A model generated the notes under the pieces. That model searched no databases. It had not been told where the DNA came from and worked only from the letters and a program-made list of their open reading frames with translations. A program made the translations under genes and the position numbers. Below, in pieces: positions 51,160 through 59,903 of a stretch of 59,903 nt of DNA; the first letter of the stretch is position 1, and each line of letters starts with the position of its first letter. This DNA comes from a bacterium (GTDB taxonomy: Bacteria > Zhuqueibacterota > QNDG01), in NCBI GenBank assembly GCA_021158245.1, contig JAGGVB010000181.1, positions 1 through 59,903 of the forward strand, written 5' to 3'.

Positions 51160-51299
51160 GGGGCTGTGTCAAAAGCCCTAACCCTGTCATTGCGAGCGTC
51201 TTTTTGCGAAGCAATCTCTTCAATTCGTGCTCAATTCCTGAGATTGCCATGTCGCTTTGCTCCTCGTAATGACTTCAAATCGACTTTTGATACAGCCCC
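51160..51299. mobile_element. 140-bp MITE-like element
   Basis: 16-bp terminal inverted repeats (GGGGCTGTGTCAAAAG, 51160-51175, and its complement with one mismatch, 51284-51299) flank a non-coding core. The core has the outward-symmetric segments GTCATTGCGAGC and CGTAATGAC, a pattern found in widespread small interspersed repeats. No transposase. It and short T- and G-tracts fill the 51067-51424 gap before vapB. Confidence 0.75.
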
Positions 51300-51350
51300 T
51301 CAGCAGCCGGTATTTTTTTTGGGGGGGTGCCAGATTTTATGTAAAAACGC

Positions 51351-51379
51351 TTGATTAATTTGTATGATTTACATAGATT
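51351..51379 (+). promoter_or_regulatory. Predicted vapB promoter
   Basis: TTGATT (51351-51356) and TAGATT (51374-51379), 17 bp apart. The following 40 bp hold several TATGATTTA-like half repeats that may be AbrB-type binding sites. Confidence 0.45.
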
Positions 51380-51424
51380 ATATATGATTTATTAAATATC
51401 GTATGAAATAATCAGGAGGCTGTT

Positions 51425-51658
51425 ATGTCTATTGCAACTGTCGGTGCGCGATATCAAATTGTAATTCCGGCAAAGGAAAGAAAACGTATCGGATTAAAAC
51501 CTAATCAGAAAGTTAATGTAACAGCTGACCGGGATTGTATAATTGTCGAACCTATAGGTTCACAATCACTCCGCGGTATTACCCGGGAACTTAATGACGG
51601 AACTGATGCTGCAGCTTATATTAATAAATTAAGAAATGAATGGAATACGCGCCGATGA
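51425..51658 (+). CDS. AbrB-type antitoxin (VapB)
   Basis: 77 residues. SpoVT-AbrB N-terminal DNA-binding fold: TVGARYQIVIPAKERKRIGLKPNQKV. The C-terminal half, which should wrap the toxin, is acidic and helical. SD AGGAGG 6 nt upstream. Its stop overlaps the toxin ATG (ATGA). It is on the opposite strand to all other TA genes of the right end. Confidence 0.9.
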   Translation: MSIATVGARYQIVIPAKERKRIGLKPNQKVNVTADRDCIIVEPIGSQSLRGITRELNDGTDAAAYINKLRNEWNTRR

Positions 51659-52098
51659 AAATCCCCGAAGGTCTGCAAAAACGGGACGGTGTAGTGATTG
51701 ATACCACTGTCTTTATTTATCTGTTTGAAGATCATCCCCGATATGGCCTGATTGCCGAATATATTATTGAACAGATTGAAAATAATATTTTTAAAGCTGT
51801 AATAACACCTGTTACTGTTGCTGAAATTATTGTTAAGCCATTATCTCTTAACCGGCCGGATTTAGCCGACAGGTGCCGCAATGCACTGCACAGGTTTAAA
51901 AATATTACAATAGTTGATTTTTCATATAAAGCAGGTGAACTTGCAGGTGCTTTAAAAGCAGCGTATAATCTTCCTTTGCCGGATATGATTCAAGCGGCAA
52001 TTTCCATGCAGTACTCATCACCTGCCCTGATTACAAATGATAAAGCCATGGCCCGTATTAAAGAAATTGATGTTTATCAATTAAATATGTTCATATAA
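51655..52098 (+). CDS. PIN-domain toxin (VapC)
   Basis: 147 residues from the ATG at 51655. PIN acidic residues: D in GVVIDTTVFIY, E in TVAEIIVKP and D in PLPDMIQAAI, then TNDKAM. VapC toxins are Mg-dependent RNases. It is coupled to the AbrB antitoxin by a 4-bp overlap. A perfect stem-loop follows the stop codon. Confidence 0.9.
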   Translation: MKIPEGLQKRDGVVIDTTVFIYLFEDHPRYGLIAEYIIEQIENNIFKAVITPVTVAEIIVKPLSLNRPDLADRCRNALHRFKNITIVDFSYKAGELAGALKAAYNLPLPDMIQAAISMQYSSPALITNDKAMARIKEIDVYQLNMFI

Positions 52099-52104
52099 CC
52101 GCTG

Positions 52105-52139
52105 CAATTTTCTGAATTGTGCACGAATTCAGAAAATTG
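52105..52139. terminator. Perfect 14-bp stem-loop after vapC
   Basis: CAATTTTCTGAATT (52105-52118) and its exact complement (52126-52139), loop GTGCACG, followed by TTTCTTT on the plus strand. Likely transcription end of vapBC. The next 160 bp hold no gene I can support. Confidence 0.7.
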
Positions 52140-52298
52140 TTTCTTTGGGCAAGCCGGAATCACAATGGCAGGTTTGTGTATTTTGATGCAGCCGAGGCAG
52201 AAAACCCCGGCGAAGAAAAACCTCCTGAGAAGGCAATTCCGCAGCTACATTCCCATGAAGAGTTCTCTAATAAATTCCAACAAACTTTTAATAAACAT

Positions 52299-52673: not shown

Positions 52674-52734
52674 TTTTCTCTCTCTACCTTTTTGAAACAG
52701 ATGTTTTGACTGCACTATCCAATTGACAATAATA

Positions 52735-52789
52735 TGACAAAATTGTCACTAATTTTATAAAGTATTAACATTTTTTACATGAATGTCAA
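52735..52789 (-). promoter_or_regulatory. Promoter and operator-like palindrome of the secreted-protein gene
   Basis: TTGACA (52784-52789) and TAATAC (52762-52767), 16 bp apart, minus strand. TGACAA-AA-TTGTCA (52735-52748) is an inverted repeat just downstream of +1. Confidence 0.5.
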
Positions 52790-52903
52790 GGAAATTATCA
52801 AAATTAGGCGGGTTTATTTATAAATCAGGCAGCAGCTTTCACCCGAGTACATGGCAACCTTCGGCCGGAATACGCATAAAATTATAATTCTAATCAAAAA
52901 CAC

Positions 52904-53004
52904 ATCTAAGGGCATAGCATAATCGGTAAACCTGAATTGACACTGGCCTTGCCATGCAAGGGCTGTGACAAGCGGGTTTATCCGAGTTCATGCGATGGTT
53001 ATAA
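52904..53004 (-). other. attC-like site 1 (after DUF6364-PIN cassette)
   Basis: A 101-bp imperfect inverted repeat starting 8 bp after the toxin stop. Outer boxes are TTATAAC (52998-53004) and CTTAGAT (52904-52910, one base from GTTAGAT). Inner arms pair over CAT-GCAT-CGG-TAAACC with extra unpaired bases on one arm, and the core closes on CCTTGC/GCAAGG. The shape is that of an attC hairpin; the unequal arms explain a tRNA-like look. Confidence 0.6.
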
Positions 53005-53012
53005 GGTATTAT

Positions 53013-53438
53013 TTATTCCGGCTTTGATGCCCATATTTTCAAATATTCTTCGGCAGTACAAATAGGGATTTTACTCTTTTTATAATCTTGAGTGTTTCTT
53101 GTAATAAGAAACTTTATTTCATTTGCTTTTGCAGTATAATATTGAATAGCATCTTCAAAATCAGTAAAGTTGGAATCTAAAGCTAATTCGATAATTTTTT
53201 CAGTAACAGGCAAGATTGATATTAATGATTTTAATTTGCGAAGACTCTGAAGAGCATATTCATTAGAAGTTTTTTTGGTAAGGATATAATGAATATTAGA
53301 AAAAACAATTGGAGATGTAAAAGCTAATATTTGTTCTTGATCAATTAAGGTAAATAATTTCGCTGCGGAGTTATAAAATGGTTTTCTTTGAGCCAATACA
53401 TCCAAAATTATATCTGAGTCTAAAAATATTTTGTGCAT
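53013..53438 (-). CDS. PIN-domain toxin (VapC-like)
   Basis: 141 residues. PIN signatures: KIFLDSDIILDVLAQRKPF, the middle acidic block DFEDAIQYYTA and C-terminal FLITRNTQDYK. It is expressed after a DUF6364 antitoxin (one-base overlap) from its own promoter. RNase activity is inferred from family. First (most distal) cassette of the array. Confidence 0.9.
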   Translation of the reverse strand: MHKIFLDSDIILDVLAQRKPFYNSAAKLFTLIDQEQILAFTSPIVFSNIHYILTKKTSNEYALQSLRKLKSLISILPVTEKIIELALDSNFTDFEDAIQYYTAKANEIKFLITRNTQDYKKSKIPICTAEEYLKIWASKPE

Positions 53439-53686
53439 TATGAATATTTTTCCATAATATGTTTTTTATACTCTGACTTTGAATCATAATTGTCTTCTAA
53501 TTGAATGACACCTGAAATCTCTTTTATATTTTGTGATACTTCAATATCATCAATATTTTGACTCTCTGTCAAATAAGTAAAATAATTCTGAACTAGTCCT
53601 GATAAACTTTGTTTTTTCAATTGAGCGTAATGTTTTGCTTTTTCAATCACATCATGATCAAGTTGTAATGTCAATTTTGAATTCAT
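53438..53686 (-). CDS. DUF6364-type ribbon-helix-helix antitoxin
   Basis: 82 residues starting KLTLQLDHDVIEKAKHYAQ, the family's RHH segment, with an acidic C-terminal tail that would bind the toxin. It is almost always paired with PIN toxins, as here. SD GAGGAGG before the ATG. Confidence 0.88.
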   Translation of the reverse strand: MNSKLTLQLDHDVIEKAKHYAQLKKQSLSGLVQNYFTYLTESQNIDDIEVSQNIKEISGVIQLEDNYDSKSEYKKHIMEKYS

Positions 53687-53701
53687 GCTAACCTCCTCTT
53701 T

Positions 53702-53740
53702 GTACGTATAAATTTAACACATAGACTACGTACTTGTCAA
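53702..53740 (-). promoter_or_regulatory. Promoter and operator of the DUF6364-PIN cassette
   Basis: TTGACA (53735-53740) and TTAAAT (53712-53717), 17 bp apart, minus strand. GTACGTA (53702-53708) and TACGTAC (53727-53733) form an inverted repeat spanning the -10 region. Confidence 0.6.
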
Positions 53741-53768
53741 GGGGAAAGTTGTAATTTATTCATTAACC

Positions 53769-53818
53769 TTATAACCCATAAACCCCGCAGTTAGCCGTCC
53801 GGTGGAAGGCATTGTTAT
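53769..53818 (-). other. attC-like site 2 (after lipoprotein cassette), weak
   Basis: The first box AATAAC overlaps the lipoprotein stop codon; the last box is GTTATAA. Between them lie GCCTTCCACCGGACGGC and GGCTAACTGC, typical of attC arms, but the arms pair poorly. It is called mainly by position. Confidence 0.35.
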
Positions 53819-54522
53819 TTTATAGTGCCGACCTTTTCTACGATGATCCCTTTAAAAGGCAGCTCGGCAATACCGGATAGGGTCTTTTTCATTTCCAATA
53901 GGAAAGGTTTCTCTGTATTCTTATCCCCGTTTTTCATCTTACTTCGTAAAGTTAGAAAACCTGCCGGATAAACGCCGTTTTCCCCTTCTTTGACCTGAAA
54001 GAATAGTACCAGGTTGTTGGTGAAGGTAATTTCATACCAACTGTCCTCGATGGTTAGATCTTTGGGTGAGGTCGCTTTATCACCGTTTCTTTTCTCAACT
54101 ACTATTTTTTCTGCTGGTATTTCAAGGTCACCGATCTCGCCGTTTAGTTCCCTGTCTGAAAAAAACTCATAGGGACCGTCTGTATTCCAGCCGGTTCGTA
54201 TGCGCTTGACCTCATACGTTCGGAACACATTATCTTCCCAGGCTTGTGTGGCCAGCTGAGACACGCGGAAACACACAGCCTGGCAGAGACATTTATTTTC
54301 TTTTTTCGTCCCTTTGTTTTCAATTATGGCATCCGCAAATTGTAATGTCTCAATTTTGCTATTGGGCTTTTTCTGAATCTTCAGTGTGTTTGACTTGACG
54401 ATATTTGTGACTGCAACACAGTCAGTTGGCAATAAAAACCTCTTCTTCGAAACAAGATGGAAACACCCAGTGAAGAAAACCGCAGAAATAAGAATCCCTA
54501 TAGTGATTTTTTGGTAAGACAT
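53815..54522 (-). CDS. Hypothetical lipoprotein, lone non-TA cassette
   Basis: 235 residues from the ATG at 54522 with AGGAGGAG upstream. A signal peptide ends FTGC (lipobox). The mature part has two cysteine pairs and no family I recognise. Base composition is richer in GC than its neighbours, which fits a transferred cassette gene. Confidence 0.7.
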   Translation of the reverse strand: MSYQKITIGILISAVFFTGCFHLVSKKRFLLPTDCVAVTNIVKSNTLKIQKKPNSKIETLQFADAIIENKGTKKENKCLCQAVCFRVSQLATQAWEDNVFRTYEVKRIRTGWNTDGPYEFFSDRELNGEIGDLEIPAEKIVVEKRNGDKATSPKDLTIEDSWYEITFTNNLVLFFQVKEGENGVYPAGFLTLRSKMKNGDKNTEKPFLLEMKKTLSGIAELPFKGIIVEKVGTIK

Positions 54523-54663
54523 CACTCCTCCTATTCGCAATTACCATATGCAAAAATAACTGCAAAATCACCAGTAAAAACAACCGACAACCAAACGGAA
54601 CACCGGAAAAGAATGAACTTGAAAGAAAGCACTACACCCAATTGAAGCAATTGACATCAACGC

Positions 54664-54739
54664 CCTTAACATGCGTTGGCCGAATTGAAAAGTGAAAATA
54701 GAAGCAAGCGTTTTCATTTAGTGCATTTTTGGGTTAGCA
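54664..54739 (-). other. attC-like site 3 (after mazEF)
   Basis: TGCTAAC (54733-54739) begins right after the mazF stop and GTTAAGG (54664-54670) closes the site 76 bp on. Inner arms pair through TGAAAA/TTTTCA. Confidence 0.45.
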
Positions 54740-54740
54740 A

Positions 54741-55082
54741 TTATTCATCATAAATAATTGCATCAAGAATAGAGAGTGCTTCATTTAGTACTCCTATAGG
54801 TGCTTTATCTATAAATTTTACCTTTCTTGATCTGTAATCAACTGATTTCATCTGATCTACCATAATAACACCTGAGATAATACCATCTTCAGGAATTTTA
54901 ACATGTAAAGGGATATTACGATTGGTGTTTGTTATTGGACAAACAAATGAAAGTCCCGTTTTTTGATTGAAGATTGTATTAGAAACTACAAGAGCAGGCC
55001 TTCTGCCTTTTTGTTCATGTCCGGATTGAGGATCAAATGTTAAGGCGATAAAATCTCCCTTTTTCGGTATATATTGTTCCAT
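54741..55082 (-). CDS. mazF: MazF/ChpB-type endoribonuclease toxin
   Basis: 113 residues from the ATG at 55082, overlapping mazE as TAATG. PemK/MazF core: KKGDFIALTFDPQSGHEQ, KGRRPALVVSN and VCPITNT. ACA-type mRNA interferases have these motifs. The toxin is neutralised by the upstream MazE. Confidence 0.95.
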   Translation of the reverse strand: MEQYIPKKGDFIALTFDPQSGHEQKGRRPALVVSNTIFNQKTGLSFVCPITNTNRNIPLHVKIPEDGIISGVIMVDQMKSVDYRSRKVKFIDKAPIGVLNEALSILDAIIYDE

Positions 55083-55330
55083 TACCAAACTTCTCCTCCA
55101 ACTGGTTTGCCCCAATCAATTTCTTCTGGCCTATAGTCTTCAGGCATTTGAGAAAGAAGACTTTTTAATTTATATTTTCCACGATTTACAGTTGTCGGTT
55201 TTACAACAATTTTACCATTATGTATAGAAATATCTACATCATCACCGATTGCTACGTGTACTTTACGAAGAATATCTTTAGGAAAACGAACTCCCTGGCT
55301 ATTACCCCATTTTTGTATTTTAGTAATCAT
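55082..55330 (-). CDS. mazE: MazE antitoxin
   Basis: 82 residues: AbrB-fold start ITKIQKWGNSQGVRFPKDIL, the MazE signature, and an acidic C-terminus containing a W and RPEE that fits MazF binding. Promoter at 55367-55395. Confidence 0.95.
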   Translation of the reverse strand: MITKIQKWGNSQGVRFPKDILRKVHVAIGDDVDISIHNGKIVVKPTTVNRGKYKLKSLLSQMPEDYRPEEIDWGKPVGGEVW

Positions 55331-55366
55331 AATATTTCCTCTTTAGACAATTAGCAGTATATCCAA

Positions 55367-55395
55367 AGTATATACAACAAAAACAAAAAAGTCAA
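55367..55395 (-). promoter_or_regulatory. mazEF promoter
   Basis: TTGACT (55390-55395) and TATACT (55367-55372), 17 bp apart, minus strand, beginning 14 bp inside the cassette after the attC core. GTATAT/ATATAC half-sites overlap the -10 box as a likely MazE operator. Confidence 0.75.
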
Positions 55396-55408
55396 GTATA
55401 ATTATTTT

Positions 55409-55502
55409 GCTAACATTTGGCTCTGAGGTGCGGCCAACTAATGCCATCCAGAAGCCATGTTTGATGTAAGAATAAAGGTACGATAATGTCCGCACAGTTA
55501 TT
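55409..55502 (-). other. attC-like site 4 (after AbrB-PIN), weak
   Basis: GTTAGC (55409-55414) ends the site; AATAAC near 55497-55502 is the best partner box. Only TGCGG/CCGCA of the inner arms pairs well. An extra 100 bp, with a GACGG/CCGTC hairpin, lies between it and the vapC stop at 55604. Confidence 0.35.
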
Positions 55503-55603
55503 CTTTTCATGGACGGCGAAAACCGTCAAAAGCAGATGAAAAATGGGAAAAAACCGTTACAGCCGCATCCGGCAGCAGCCATGGGGATATGCCAGCCCTT
55601 TAT

Positions 55604-55975
55604 CTACTTGGCAAAATAATTTACTCTTGGCATATTTTGAAAATCATTATCTTGTGTCCAAACTATAGCTTCAAATTTATTTGCTGTTGCCAGAATAATA
55701 CTATCTGCCATTGGGATTTTATTTCTTAAACTAATAACAGCTGCGGACATTGCAATTTCTAATGTTAGATCAACAATTTGCCCTTGTTTCATTAAAGCAA
55801 TACCTTGAAGTGCACTATTTTCATCTTTTTCACGAAGAATGACTTTGAATACCTCATAGATAGTAATTGAGGGAACAATTAATGACTCTACATTTGAAAG
55901 TGGTTCTTCAAACTGACTTGCATTTTTACCACCAGAGAAATACTCAAGCCACCCAGATGAATCTACAATATTCAC
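55604..55975 (-). CDS. PIN-domain toxin (VapC)
   Basis: 123 residues, GTG start overlapping the antitoxin stop by 4 bp. NIVDSSGWLEYF (first acidic Asp), SITIYEVFKV (Glu) and PMADSIILATA (third Asp), ending VWTQDNDF. Typical VapC ribonuclease of a TA pair. Confidence 0.92.
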   Translation of the reverse strand: MNIVDSSGWLEYFSGGKNASQFEEPLSNVESLIVPSITIYEVFKVILREKDENSALQGIALMKQGQIVDLTLEIAMSAAVISLRNKIPMADSIILATANKFEAIVWTQDNDFQNMPRVNYFAK

Positions 55976-56184
55976 ACTCTATCCCCTTCTCTTTCGAAAT
56001 TGATGTCAATTCCTTTTAAAAAACCCTTCATATCAGTTATCTTTCTAACGGGGATAAGTTCAATTCTGTCTTCATATTGCATGACTTGCATTCGTTGGCC
56101 AGGAAGCAACTTTAATGATTCTCTCACATTCTTAGGTATTACGACTTGAAATTTGGGTGAAATTTTTACTGCTTCCATTTTCAA
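55972..56184 (-). CDS. AbrB-type antitoxin (VapB)
   Basis: 70 residues. SpoVT-AbrB domain: ISPKFQVVIPKNVRESLKL, then GQRMQVMQYEDRIEL. Short acidic C-terminus. AAGGAG precedes the ATG by about 8 nt. Confidence 0.92.
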   Translation of the reverse strand: MKMEAVKISPKFQVVIPKNVRESLKLLPGQRMQVMQYEDRIELIPVRKITDMKGFLKGIDINFEREGDRV

Positions 56185-56272
56185 TCTCCTTATTAAAGCC
56201 CTTGTCGTAATACGTTAATACTATCGATACTAAAAATCAACTTCTTTTTGGCTATCGTCAAAAAATATAGGG

Positions 56273-56399
56273 GTATAACGGTGCGGTTCAGTGAGTGCAA
56301 AAGCCAAGAGAAATCTCGACAACTGAAGTGATTCCACTGAGCTCTAATAAACCTAAAAACCGGTGCGCTTTTGCATCCACTGCAACCGCATGGTTAGCA
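56273..56399 (-). other. attC-like site 5, best preserved
   Basis: 127 bp starting 9 bp after the Phd stop. Outer boxes TGCTAAC (56393-56399) and GTTATAC (56273-56279) share TAAC/GTTA. Inner arms TGCGGTT-G-CAGTG and CACTG-AACCGCA pair with one extra unpaired G on one arm, then TGCAAAAGC/GCTTTTGCA pairs further in. The loop is variable. This is the standard attC plan: R''-L''-loop-L'-R' with an extrahelical base. Confidence 0.78.
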
Positions 56400-56407
56400 G
56401 GAATTTA

Positions 56408-56629
56408 TTAATTGCCGCGTCTCACTTCTTGCAAGATGTCAATGATTTCTTCTTTCGAGATATCTATCTTTATTCCTTTAACATTAAGAGGAGAAGTTAT
56501 TTTCTTAAAAGGTTTTACAATAAACGACGATCCATCTTTTCTTTTTATTAATACCTCACCTTCAATTTGTGCTTTATTTAAAATAGAAGCAAATTTTTGT
56601 CTGGCCTCTGAAAAAGTATATACTATCAT
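56408..56629 (-). CDS. Phd/YefM-type antitoxin
   Basis: 73 residues. The Phd fold start is MIVYTFSEARQKFASILNKA, followed by a beta-strand IKRKDGSSFIV. It is the downstream gene, overlapping the PIN toxin stop as ATGA, the reverse of the usual antitoxin-first order. Confidence 0.85.
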   Translation of the reverse strand: MIVYTFSEARQKFASILNKAQIEGEVLIKRKDGSSFIVKPFKKITSPLNVKGIKIDISKEEIIDILQEVRRGN

Positions 56630-57024
56630 GGCTCAACCTCGATCGTTTTTATATTTAAAGTCTTTGAAATTGTTTTTAATTTATCATCAAGTGTTAATAG
56701 TGCGGCTTTTTGCCTGATAGCACACTCAATAAAATATGCATCATAAGCATAGATATTATTTTCATATGCAATTGACAGGGCATTTTTTAAATCAATATCA
56801 AGGAATCTTATTGGTATCTTCTGATAGTAATCAATAGCTGTTCTTGCCTGGCTTAATGTTAATCTGTTCCTTTTAAACATCGCAGAAAAGGCATTACTAA
56901 TTTCCCAGTGCAAAGATTGTGGTGCAATCAATTCACATCCGATCGTGTGCTGAATTAATTTATTTTTATGCTTTTCATTTGTGATTACTGCTATGACAAC
57001 AGATGTGTCGATTACGATTAGCAT
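56626..57024 (-). CDS. PIN-domain toxin (VapC-like), toxin-first
   Basis: 132 residues. IVIDTSVVIAVITNE, HWEISNAFSAMF and AYDAYFIECAI carry the PIN acidic residues; C-terminus LLTLDDKLK. Transcribed before its antitoxin, so its expression relies on the operator at 57043-57056. Confidence 0.88.
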   Translation of the reverse strand: MLIVIDTSVVIAVITNEKHKNKLIQHTIGCELIAPQSLHWEISNAFSAMFKRNRLTLSQARTAIDYYQKIPIRFLDIDLKNALSIAYENNIYAYDAYFIECAIRQKAALLTLDDKLKTISKTLNIKTIEVEP

Positions 57025-57042
57025 TTACGTTCACACTCCATG

Positions 57043-57088
57043 TGTACAATTGTACAACTAATTTAATTCATACTACATGCATTGTCAA
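57043..57088 (-). promoter_or_regulatory. Promoter and palindromic operator of the PIN-Phd cassette
   Basis: TTGACA (57083-57088) and TAAATT (57060-57065), 17 bp apart, minus strand. A perfect 14-bp palindrome TGTACAATTGTACA (57043-57056) covers the start of transcription. Confidence 0.65.
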
Positions 57089-57101
57089 GTATTTTTTACC
57101 T

Positions 57102-57741
57102 GCTAACAATTCTTATCTTAAATAAACCGAAATTTACTTGAAAAAGTGCCTTTCCATCTGCAAAATGATAATACCCTTATTTTCATTTATTTGATTGAAA
57201 GGAGAATACTATGAAACTCCAAAATCTCGAGATGCCTGTCCCGAGTTTTATACGGGGAAAAGGCACTATATCTCCGATAAATTCGTTATTGGTATTGACC
57301 CGGCTAAAAACAAACACCAGGCCATGGTTCTTGATCCCAAAGGAATTCCTGTCGGGAAATCCTTTTCTTTTCAAAGTTCTTACAACGGTTTCCATTTCAA
57401 ACTCATTCCCTTTCCTGGTTCTTCCTGACTAGCGAATCTATAAATTAGTCGGGCCGAATAATTAGAATCGGCAGCGACGAAATAAAGTCGGGCAGGGAAG
57501 TTTAAACAACCGGGACGGTACTTTGAGACTGCAATAGGTGAAGTGCGTCCGGACTTGAGGGAAAGGTACAAGCTTCTTGAGCTTAAAAGTGACCGTTGTC
57601 AAAGAACGATAATCAATTTAAAGATATACTTTTTACTTGACTTTCAGCAAGTAGACCAAGCTCACCAGCGGTAATGGAGCGTCTCGCACTGAGCCTGTCG
57701 AAGTGCAGCGGAATAGCGGTCAGGTGGAGTGTCTTGTTAGC
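57102..57741 (-). other. attC-like site 6 (after hicBA), split by an IS110 derivative
   Basis: GCTAAC box of R'' (57736-57741) starts 3 bp from the hicA stop; R' GTTAGC is at 57102-57107, so the two boxes are exact complements. L'' contains CTCCACC and L' contains GGTGAG, paired with one extra C. Without the insertion the site would be about 93 bp. The IS remnant sits between L' and R', next to the GTTA core. Confidence 0.7.
57108..57654 (+). mobile_element. IS110-family remnant A (internally deleted)
   Basis: About 547 bp. The left half (frame from 57195 to 57428, stop after the deletion) encodes the IS110 N-terminal DEDD start: FVIGIDPAKNKHQ then VLDPKGIPVGKSF. The right half, in another frame, encodes the C-terminal ETAIGEVRPDLRERYKLLEL block. 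An internal deletion and frame breaks make it non-coding. Right end carries the ACTTG/CAAGT subterminal hairpin. Two shorter copies share the same ends. Confidence 0.75.
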
Positions 57742-57744
57742 GAA

Positions 57745-57972
57745 TTATAATTTTTTCAAGAAATCATTTACTGTTATCCTTGCTTGTTTTAATATATGTG
57801 AAAGGGTTGACCGCTTTATCGGCTTATGCGCCGGAACTATAATTTTTAATACCTCATTTTCAATATGTTTTTGCAACCTTATATGCGAACCTTTTTGTCG
57901 AACTATTACCCACCCATCCCTTTGTAACGCTTTGATGACCTTGTCGTAATTTAAACTCGGCACCTTGCTCAT
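57745..57972 (-). CDS. hicA: HicA-type mRNA interferase toxin
   Basis: 75 residues. dsRBD-like HicA with the catalytic His30 in RQKGSHIRLQKH and the C-terminal TLSHILKQARI. It cleaves mRNA and tmRNA in known relatives. Overlaps hicB by 4 bp (ATGA), hicB first. Confidence 0.92.
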   Translation of the reverse strand: MSKVPSLNYDKVIKALQRDGWVIVRQKGSHIRLQKHIENEVLKIIVPAHKPIKRSTLSHILKQARITVNDFLKKL

Positions 57973-58172
57973 ATCGATAATTCCACTTCTTCAGCGTGGG
58001 TAGCTTTGAAAGTATCATCTGCTACCGGTTCTAAATAAAGTTCAATTGCCTCACGAATATTTTTTAATGCTTCTTCTTTCGTATCGCCTTCTGAAATACA
58101 TCCCGGCAGAGAAGGCACTATAGCTGTATATCCTCCATCATCGCTTGGTTCCAAATAAATTTTCAGTTTCAT
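57969..58172 (-). CDS. hicB: HicB-type antitoxin, short form
   Basis: 67 residues: the degenerate RNase H-like fold with YTAIVPSLPGCISEGDTKEEAL. The usual C-terminal DNA-binding segment is missing or minimal, so transcriptional control may lie elsewhere. Starts only 24 nt after the attC R' core, with AGAGG upstream. Confidence 0.9.
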   Translation of the reverse strand: MKLKIYLEPSDDGGYTAIVPSLPGCISEGDTKEEALKNIREAIELYLEPVADDTFKATHAEEVELSI

Positions 58173-58197
58173 ATCTATCCTCTTATTTCTATTTCTC

Positions 58198-58650
58198 GCT
58201 AACGATTCTTATCTTAAATAAGCCGGAATTTACTTGATAAAGTGCTTTTCCGTCTGCAAAATGATAATACCCTTATCTGATTGAAAGGAATATACTATAA
58301 AATTACAATATTCCGGGATAAAAGGCAATTTATTTCCGATAAATTCATTACATCCCTGCCGGGAAATCTTTTTCTCTTCAAAATCTGTGCAGCGGTTTTC
58401 ACTTTAAACTCTGGCAGGGAAGTTTAAACAACCGGGACGGTACATTCGCAATGACTTTGAGACTGCAATAGCCAAGGTGCGTCCGGAGTTCAGGAAAAGG
58501 TACATGCTTCTTGAGATTAAAGAAGAGCGTTTTCAAGAACAAATTCAAAATTATCTTTTATTTTTCTTTTGCTTTTCAGCAGGCAGCCGCGCTTAACCAG
58601 TTGGGTTGAACCTGAGTGAACTCCAGAATCTAATTCCAGGAGCTAAGGTT
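58198..58650 (-). other. attC-like site 7 (after AbrB-PIN), degraded and split
   Basis: R' GTTAGC is at 58198-58203 next to the IS remnant. A second core-like GTTAAGC lies at 58591-58597, followed by GAACCT/AGGTTC arms; the R'' box is lost at the toxin stop. Called from context and one good core. Confidence 0.35.
58204..58585 (+). mobile_element. IS110-family remnant B
   Basis: About 382 bp with the same left end (ATTCTTATCTTAAATAA) and right region (NDFETAIAKVRPEFRKRY) as remnant A, with a larger internal deletion. Non-coding. It occupies most of the 58173-58650 gap. Confidence 0.7.
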
Positions 58651-59064
58651 CTATAGTTGCTCCGGGCAGATCAGCTTTACTGTTGGAAAATATGTTTTGT
58701 ATCTATTTACATCTCGTGTAATTAAGTCCAGTCCAAGTACTGCTGCATGTGCTCCAATATAGAAATCGGGTAAGGGGGATCTCTTTATCCCTTTATTCTT
58801 TCTATACTTTAGATAAACTTTACCGGCCAGAAAAAGAGCTTCTTTAGGAATTTCCAGCATCTGGAATCCACCTTTATGGATGGCTGATTCCAACTCCTCA
58901 ATCTTTCCAAAACCTATAGAGACTTCTGTGTACACAATTGAGTTAATATAGAGCGTTTCGTAAAGGCTATAATTTGCCAATACCGATTCAGACCAATCCG
59001 CCCAATTTGGGTCATCAAGAAAAATGTCCAAAATAACGTTTGAGTCAACAAGAAGGCCCTTCAC
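58651..59064 (-). CDS. PIN-domain toxin (VapC)
   Basis: 137 residues, GTG start, 4-bp overlap with the antitoxin. GLLVDSNVILDIF, YTEVSIGFGK and PLPDFYIGAHA hold the acidic PIN residues; C-terminus LDLITRDVNRYK. Belongs to the last complete TA module. Confidence 0.92.
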   Translation of the reverse strand: MKGLLVDSNVILDIFLDDPNWADWSESVLANYSLYETLYINSIVYTEVSIGFGKIEELESAIHKGGFQMLEIPKEALFLAGKVYLKYRKNKGIKRSPLPDFYIGAHAAVLGLDLITRDVNRYKTYFPTVKLICPEQL

Positions 59065-59288
59065 CTATCCTCCCTTGTTAATGCCATAATCTCATCTGTC
59101 GTCATTTTAACATCTGCAATGCCGCGTAATTTTGCAAATTTACGGGTTGCAGCTTTTTTCCCTTTTAATTTCACTAAAAAGACGCGGCCTTCTTCCTCAA
59201 TAAAATCAACTTCTGTTGCCGGGGTTATCCTTAATTTTTCACGAATGTGCTGGGGAATTGTTACTTGACCTTTTGTAGTTACTCTCAT
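59061..59288 (-). CDS. AbrB-type antitoxin (VapB)
   Basis: 75 residues. TTKGQVTIPQHIREKLRI is the SpoVT-AbrB signature. The C-terminal half has KKAATRKFAKLRGI and acidic residues for toxin contact. SD GGAGG upstream. Promoter and operator at 59299-59349. Confidence 0.93.
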   Translation of the reverse strand: MRVTTKGQVTIPQHIREKLRITPATEVDFIEEEGRVFLVKLKGKKAATRKFAKLRGIADVKMTTDEIMALTREDR

Positions 59289-59298
59289 TATGTGACCT

Positions 59299-59349
59299 CC
59301 AGTACTAAGTATTACTGGTAATAATAATACATTATACAGCCAAAGTCAA
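59299..59349 (-). promoter_or_regulatory. Promoter and operator of the VapBC cassette
   Basis: TTGACT (59344-59349) and TATTAT (59321-59326), 17 bp apart, minus strand. CCAGTA (59299-59304) and TACTGG (59313-59318) form a perfect inverted repeat at +1. The remainder of the 59289-59634 gap is attC/IS sequence. Confidence 0.75.
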
Positions 59350-59366
59350 TATCAATTTATAGAATT

Positions 59367-59628
59367 ATTTAACGATTCTTATCTTAAATAAACCGGAATT
59401 TACTTGATAAATTGACTTTCCTAAACAACCGGCACAGCACATCCGCAATGACTTTGAGACTGCAATAGGTGAAGTGCGTCCGGACTTGAGGGAAAGGTAC
59501 ATGCTTTTTGAGCTTAAAAGGGACAGTTTTCAGAGAACAACTTTAAGATTATCTTTTATTTTTCACTTGCTTTTCAGCAAGTAGGTTTGGCTTCATCCGG
59601 CTGCGTCTGCTATAGACCCGGGTTATTA
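59367..59628 (-). other. attC-like site 8, split by an IS110 derivative
   Basis: R' GTTAAAT (59367-59373) is a perfect GTTRRRY core next to the IS. The other half, TAATAACCCGGG with GTC/GAC and CCGG arms, starts at 59628, 7 bp after the stop of the terminal gene. Confidence 0.4.
59374..59584 (+). mobile_element. IS110-family remnant C (shortest)
   Basis: About 211 bp: same left end as A and B, then a junction at AAACAACCGG and the right coding remnant with VRPDLRERYMLFELK. The right end carries the ACTTGCT/AGCAAGT hairpin. Confidence 0.7.
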
Positions 59629-59634
59629 TAAATT

Positions 59635-59871
59635 TTACAATTTATCAAATTGTTCTGGTTCGATATCTGGAAGTTTCGACAAAATTTCTCTGAATTTATT
59701 AGAATTTCCATATTTACCCCGCTCTTCAAGATATCGTCCAGTTTCAAGTGCTGATATTTTTTCAGCCAGTGCAAAGGTGATAAATTGATTTATTGATATT
59801 TTATCTTCCGATGCTAATAGTTTTACTCTATTATGTAACGATTCAGGTATTCGTAAACTCAATGTACTCAT
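59635..59871 (-). CDS. HicB/CopG-like RHH antitoxin
   Basis: 78 residues. N-terminal STLSLRIPESLHNRVKLLA then SINQFITFALAEKISAL is a ribbon-helix-helix antitoxin of the HicB-family type that pairs with PIN toxins. TGAGG precedes the ATG. A partner toxin, if any, would be upstream beyond the window edge. Confidence 0.82.
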   Translation of the reverse strand: MSTLSLRIPESLHNRVKLLASEDKISINQFITFALAEKISALETGRYLEERGKYGNSNKFREILSKLPDIEPEQFDKL

Positions 59872-59903
59872 TGTTAAACCTCAGAAAGCGGATTTATTCT
59901 CAA

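Follow-up and report, generated by a model that had tools for sequence, protein, structure and literature searches.

A toxin-antitoxin cassette array at the end of a contig

We analysed the window, a full contig (C181) of 59,903 bp from a metagenome-assembled genome (MAG) of 3.21 Mb in 233 contigs and 95% completeness, whose right end holds an array of toxin-antitoxin (TA) cassettes in which three attC sites are interrupted by short repeats related to IS110-family insertion sequences (IS). A sequence-only reading had described eight consecutive minus-strand modules at this locus, all but one of them TA pairs of PIN, MazF and HicA types, each followed by an attC-like palindrome, in a host of the Fibrobacteres-Chlorobi-Bacteroidetes (FCB) type. 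The layout of open reading frames (ORFs) bears out the eight successive modules, all on the minus strand, and together with Pfam families makes seven of them TA modules, the exception being a family-less orphan. The placement of the host also holds. Its GTDB phylum includes genomes deposited under the names candidate division KSB1 (G064) and Calditrichota (G042). The right edge of the window is the contig end (59903), and the array is broken there. From 59.9 to 52.9 kb the modules are as follows, where closure denotes exact reverse complementarity between the cassette start and the R'' box behind the gene.

59635..59871, minus strand: HicB/CopG-like antitoxin ORF of the first cassette, cut by the contig end (Pfam HicB, 34.9 bits)
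58651..59288, minus strand: MazE-like antitoxin (59061-59288) and PIN toxin (58651-59064), by Pfam; start GTT at 59373
57745..58172, minus strand: HicB (57969-58172) and HicA (57745-57972), by Pfam; start 58203 GTTAGCGA, R'' 57743 TCGCTAAC, 8-nt closure
56408..57024, minus strand: PIN toxin (56626-57024) and Phd/YefM antitoxin (56408-56629), by Pfam, the Phd match just below the cut-off; start 57107 GTTAGCAG, R'' 56400 CTGCTAAC, 9-nt closure
55604..56184, minus strand: second MazE (55972-56184) and PIN (55604-55975), by Pfam; start 56279; own attC degenerate, without a matching R''
54741..55330, minus strand: MazE (55082-55330) and MazF/PemK (54741-55115; Pfam PemK, 84.8 bits); start 55414 GTTAGCAA, R'' 54740 TTGCTAAC, 8-nt closure
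53815..54522, minus strand: orphan lipoprotein-like ORF, the sole non-TA module, no Pfam match; start near 54618 GTTCATT, degenerate attC
53013..53686, minus strand: DUF6364 (53438-53686) and PIN_3 toxin (53013-53438), by Pfam; start 53775 GTTATAAG, R'' 53005 CTTATAAC, 10-nt closure

Strong promoter-like matches (by consensus only) lie 18-35 bp past four of the cassette starts, at 59349, 57088, 55395 and 53740. Sedentary integrons are generally believed to gain stability from TA cassettes that carry a promoter of their own.

Cassette boundaries and attC sites

In a free circular cassette, one attC site supplies both the bases that open the cassette (G|TTRRRY) and the R'' box behind the gene, which are therefore complementary. 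Four cassettes of the array (HicBA, PIN-Phd, MazEF and DUF6364-PIN) close exactly in this way over 8, 9, 8 and 10 nt respectively, while mismatched start/R'' pairings within the array reach at most 7 nt and chance 8-nt matches of this type occur 1-2 times per strand over the other 52 kb of the contig. Such complementarity of the first 8-10 bases is the signature of excisable cassettes, and the boundaries of these four modules are real. All four lie on the minus strand, in keeping with the single polarity of G|TT boundaries that had been proposed. The same start/R'' comparison within the array found no matching R'' for the MazE-PIN and second MazE-PIN modules; the orphan was judged by eye, its start GTTCATT having no AATGAAC counterpart past its stop. 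Two of the attC sites illustrate the range of preservation.

56273..56400, minus strand: intact long attC, R'' TGCTAAC to R' GTTATAC (palindrome score 15.5)
52907..53005, minus strand: last attC-like site, R' decayed to CTTAGAT (by sequence), the left end of the array

As the remaining attC sites are degenerate, the statement that each module is followed by an attC was too strong. A relaxed palindrome scan gave one scoring site in the array (56273-56399), with a site count not above that of shuffled sequences, and a strict scan gave almost nothing in the relatives' loci; palindrome scans by themselves are uninformative. An Rfam scan of the array region at relaxed E-values returned no attC or other RNA family above threshold. 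The array is real, and less regular than first described.

IS110-family mini-elements inside attC sites

A repeat of 210-546 bp, missed by the sequence-only reading, interrupts three attC sites, before 59373, 58203 and 57107. The strand given for each copy is the sense of the former transposase.

59374..59583, plus strand: mini-element e1, short form, between an attC half and the cassette start GTTAAAT; same deletion form at C212:3809-4030 and C209:4530-4758
58204..58585, plus strand: mini-element e2, medium form, abutting GTTAGCG; its deletion form is also present at C3, C160 and, in a diverged copy, C194
57108..57653, plus strand: mini-element e3, longest form, with a truncated IS110 transposase ORF at 57195-57428 on the plus strand (PF01548, 14.7 bits)
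57654..57743, minus strand: 5' part of an attC (CGCTAACAAGACACTCCACCTGACCGC...GGTGAGCTTGGTC), cut off from its R' (57107) by e3 (from the sequence and the list of left ends)

The repeat matches about 20 places on twelve contigs of the MAG (C181 and eleven others). Read in cassette orientation it starts with CTACTTGCTGAAAAGCAAG, often after ...GAGCTTGGTC, and ends with ...TTTATTTAAGATAAGAATC directly before a cassette start. GTT lies exactly next to the right end in 13 of 18 MAG copies (binomial p ~3e-20 against 1/64, a value that is overstated, as some right ends were placed by queries already containing G or more of GTT), and TGARCTYRRTC-like attC arms precede 5 of 12 left ends. Position and orientation are uniform: the elements lie immediately 5' of the G|TT crossover, with the transposase remnant antisense to the cassettes. 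This remnant comprises the N-terminus only in the window (13-15 bits), and that of e3 is 36-45% identical to IS110 transposases of other genomes. The roughly 20 repeats are IS110-family elements with internal deletions.

Two deletion forms recur between unrelated flanks, the short one in C181, C212 and C209 and the medium one in C181, C3 and C160. Their recurrence at unrelated attC sites suggests that the mini-elements were probably mobilised in trans. Repeated copies that lack a transposase gene (tnp) and share a deletion structure at independent sites are the mark of miniature inverted-repeat transposable elements (MITEs) and mini-IS, although the window copies have no clear terminal or subterminal inverted repeats. 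On other contigs, the start/R'' closure test gave no match of 6 nt or more for cassettes lying behind an element, and we therefore take those arrays to be more decayed. Long ORFs on L036, L032, L030 and L025, which are contigs with the repeat or, in the case of C131, with a piece of the integron integrase IntI, resemble restriction-modification genes by eye.

Relatives of the element and their guide-like hairpins

A scan of the genome collection with the transposase N-terminus yielded twelve loci, spread over Bacteroidetes, Neomarinimicrobiota, KSB1, Calditrichota, Kryptoniota, Ignavibacteriales and other MAGs. The autonomous members encode proteins of 439-454 aa that match NF033542 (IS110 RNA-guided transposase) at 151-155 bits, against a cut-off of 140, and PDB matches to IS621 and ISCro4 likewise identify an IS110 recombinase by sequence. 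In several FCB-type MAGs these autonomous relatives sit at the same spot of attC as the mini-elements, and the left ends of autonomous members, like those of members truncated by a contig end, lie directly against the cassette starts GTTATACC, GTTAGCC, GTTATGCC and GTTAGATT. A truncated transposase start abuts GTTAGG both in G042 and in the sister species. In L091 the element has split a glycosyltransferase gene at a half site resembling attC, and joining the element's flanks restores the reading frame exactly, with no target duplication. G003, a genome of the same order that encodes an intact IntI, carries three element ends at sites resembling attC, and about 140 nt of its right end are 61-67% identical to the window copies. 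More distant transposases of the phylum (L132 and L134) are not at attC. A plasmid search with the L091 transposase found only IS110 relatives of less than 60% identity (the best among the matches listed being 25-31%), none of which, among those listed, was marked as inside an integron. By eye, L091 has a subterminal inverted repeat of 7 nt (TGTTACA), short of the 11-13 bp of the IS1111-attC group; because of this short repeat, and because none is clear in the window copies, we do not file the elements as IS1111 proper.

In L087 and L091, the approximately 400 nt that follow tnp are predicted to form a long hairpin with an internal loop, and so are shorter stretches in L088, L086 and G003. One strand of the loop has the sequence CGCCTAAC in L087, CGTCTAAC in L091, CGACTAAT in L088, GAATAAC in L086 and TGACTAAC in G003, resembling the complement of R' (the R-box complement RYYYAAC). 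L088 has ATTATAG in its flank in place of GTT and CTAAT in its loop in place of CTAAC. L132 (G024:C168), a related element of IS110 type, lies outside attC; its hairpin loop CAAAGCTT stands opposite the element's own flank AAGCTTTG with an 8-nt match. By analogy with the seekRNA and bridge RNA of described elements (PMC11187229, PMC11208160), we infer that the hairpin is a guide RNA, and such an RNA is most likely what directs these elements to attC. The hairpin is apparently not kept in the mini-elements of the window.

The MazE-PIN cassette is the only one that also occurs in the sister species G001 (82% identity in DNA and 87% in the PIN protein; G001:C221), where it again lies between element ends. 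Its neighbours there differ, which argues against a fixed inherited block, in a sister genome that is 80% complete. A 60-nt stretch to the left of the array (52731-52790) matches G001:C78:7372-7431 at 88%.

Integrase search

A TIGR02249 search of the MAG returned nothing over 265 bits, only XerC/D-type matches and decayed N- and C-terminal pieces of IntI, at C131:465-578 (L036) and C31:2840-2980 (L037). Intact IntI proteins over the cut-off are present in 34 of 79 relatives, several of them of the same order, which makes an integron ancestry natural and leaves room for an intI on a stretch missing from the assembly. As the MAG has no intact intI, the locus is, in the present assembly, a cluster of attC sites lacking an integrase (CALIN). 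The evidence supports naming 52.9-59.9 kb a TA-rich integron cassette array in an FCB-type lineage, best called a CALIN.

The piece on C31 is followed by the start of a HicB-like antitoxin. A tyrosine recombinase seemingly split between the C166 end (L031 3001-3205) and the C15 start (L029 1-227), adjoining array-like contigs, was considered as intI and rejected, being XerD-type by eye. Palindromes resembling attC lie near intact IntI genes in two relatives, at L105 16945-19647 (G062) and L114 8992-12590 (G049).

Proposed history and its alternatives

We favour, with a probability of about 0.8, an account in which a TA CALIN had its attC sites invaded by non-autonomous IS110-family mini-elements. 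IntI would have captured the cassettes at attC sites, as the start/R'' complementarity of four of them implies, and the sedentary array would then have lost, or become separated from, its integrase. Short non-autonomous IS110-family derivatives would have invaded at least three attC sites in the window and others on eleven more contigs, with the R' end of attC as target. Having no transposase and apparently no guide hairpin, they would have been mobilised in trans. Each insertion puts over 200 nt between R' and the remainder of its attC, which would keep the attC hairpin from folding and so fix the cassette; the insertions probably freeze cassettes in place. On a broader version, guide-less, attC-specific IS110 mini-elements spread through the TA array and locked it into a fixed TA island, while the guide RNA of autonomous relatives in several FCB phyla imitates the integron's R box; to this we give even odds.

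Several observations weigh against this account. A profile search found no transposase above the cut-off in the MAG, and the short-form copies, at 79-86% identity to one another, look old, which leaves current mobility unsupported. Given several degenerate attC sites, part of the array may have been immobile for long. RNAalifold showed no convincing conserved structure in the 3' part of the mini-elements, and the idea that they carry a guide RNA of their own was dropped for that reason. Among the attC members of the wider family, loop-to-flank matches of 4-6 nt are little better than mismatched pairs, as expected if all of them share one target.

The first alternative is independent decay, in which full-length IS110 elements entered attC and later lost their middles, so that the mini-forms never moved as such. 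We regard it as possible but doubtful. The divergence of all copies, the lack of a surviving recombinase in the MAG and the various truncated forms present in other genomes fit it; short and medium deletion junctions common to copies at unrelated attC sites would hardly be expected from it, though gene conversion could produce them. A complete, active integron with intI and attI just right of the contig end is improbable. The contig does break within the array, pieces of the array are found on about twelve contigs and same-order relatives have a full IntI, but the 95%-complete assembly contains no IntI over the cut-off, and its decayed pieces lie on other contigs only.

Still less probable is that the integrase, and not RNA-guided insertion, spread the element as part of a cassette whose attC carries a long insert. 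The location of the elements inside attC, between a gene and the next cassette start, and the element ends on either side of the MazE-PIN cassette in both species would suit such a spread, but the interrupted glycosyltransferase gene of L091 requires transposition, and the autonomous members have a transposase and guide-like hairpins. That the locus is an ordinary TA cluster of the chromosome, or a genomic island, whose palindromes arose by chance, for which the unremarkable relaxed palindrome count and several degenerate boundaries could be cited, is hardly credible in view of the closure of four cassettes and of a mobile element family inserted attC-specifically at the same points.

Relation to known systems

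With TA-rich sedentary integrons and CALINs the locus shares an array of small TA cassettes in one polarity, with promoters and attC sites, and the lack of an integrase in the assembly; it differs in being broken by IS110-family mini-elements, its most unusual feature, and in its uncultured host of KSB1/Calditrichota type. The IS1111-attC group (ISKpn4, ISPst6, ISPa25, ISPa21) comprises IS110-family elements that are directed to one end of attC by an RNA of the non-coding region downstream of tnp (PMC11187229), and ISPa21 in the attC of blaGES-5 integrons has been proposed to immobilise cassettes (PMC11616780). As in this group, position and orientation within attC are constant for our elements; they differ in their 439-454 aa transposases, short imperfect subterminal repeats (7 nt, in L091), occurrence in FCB-group MAGs and, in the window, presence as internally deleted forms only. 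IS621 and other bridge RNA elements have in common with them the IS110 recombinase, by sequence, and a guide-like hairpin with an internal loop, which here lies downstream of tnp and goes with attC as the target. Like MITEs and mini-IS, the window elements are short, tnp-less, repeated deletion derivatives that keep their ends, yet they have no clear terminal inverted repeat pair and are target-specific to attC.

As attC-targeting IS1111 elements (ISKpn4, ISPst6, ISPa21) are already known, what is new is the non-autonomous mini-forms, and their place in a TA-rich CALIN; a literature search at the level of brief descriptions turned up no IS110-derived MITE in attC. The locus joins two systems guided by RNA or DNA structure, bridge-RNA transposons and integrons. 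If mini-elements fix cassettes, the persistence of sedentary TA arrays in one place may be due to transposons and not to selection alone. L087 and L091 are candidate attC-programmed recombinases in FCB-group bacteria, in hosts far from the Pseudomonas and Klebsiella that were the source of the described ISPst6, ISKpn4 and ISPa21.

Just outside the array, at 51208-52143, lies a plus-strand MazE-PIN pair (51425-52098) flanked by 40-nt imperfect inverted repeats (75%), which may be a separate small mobile unit.

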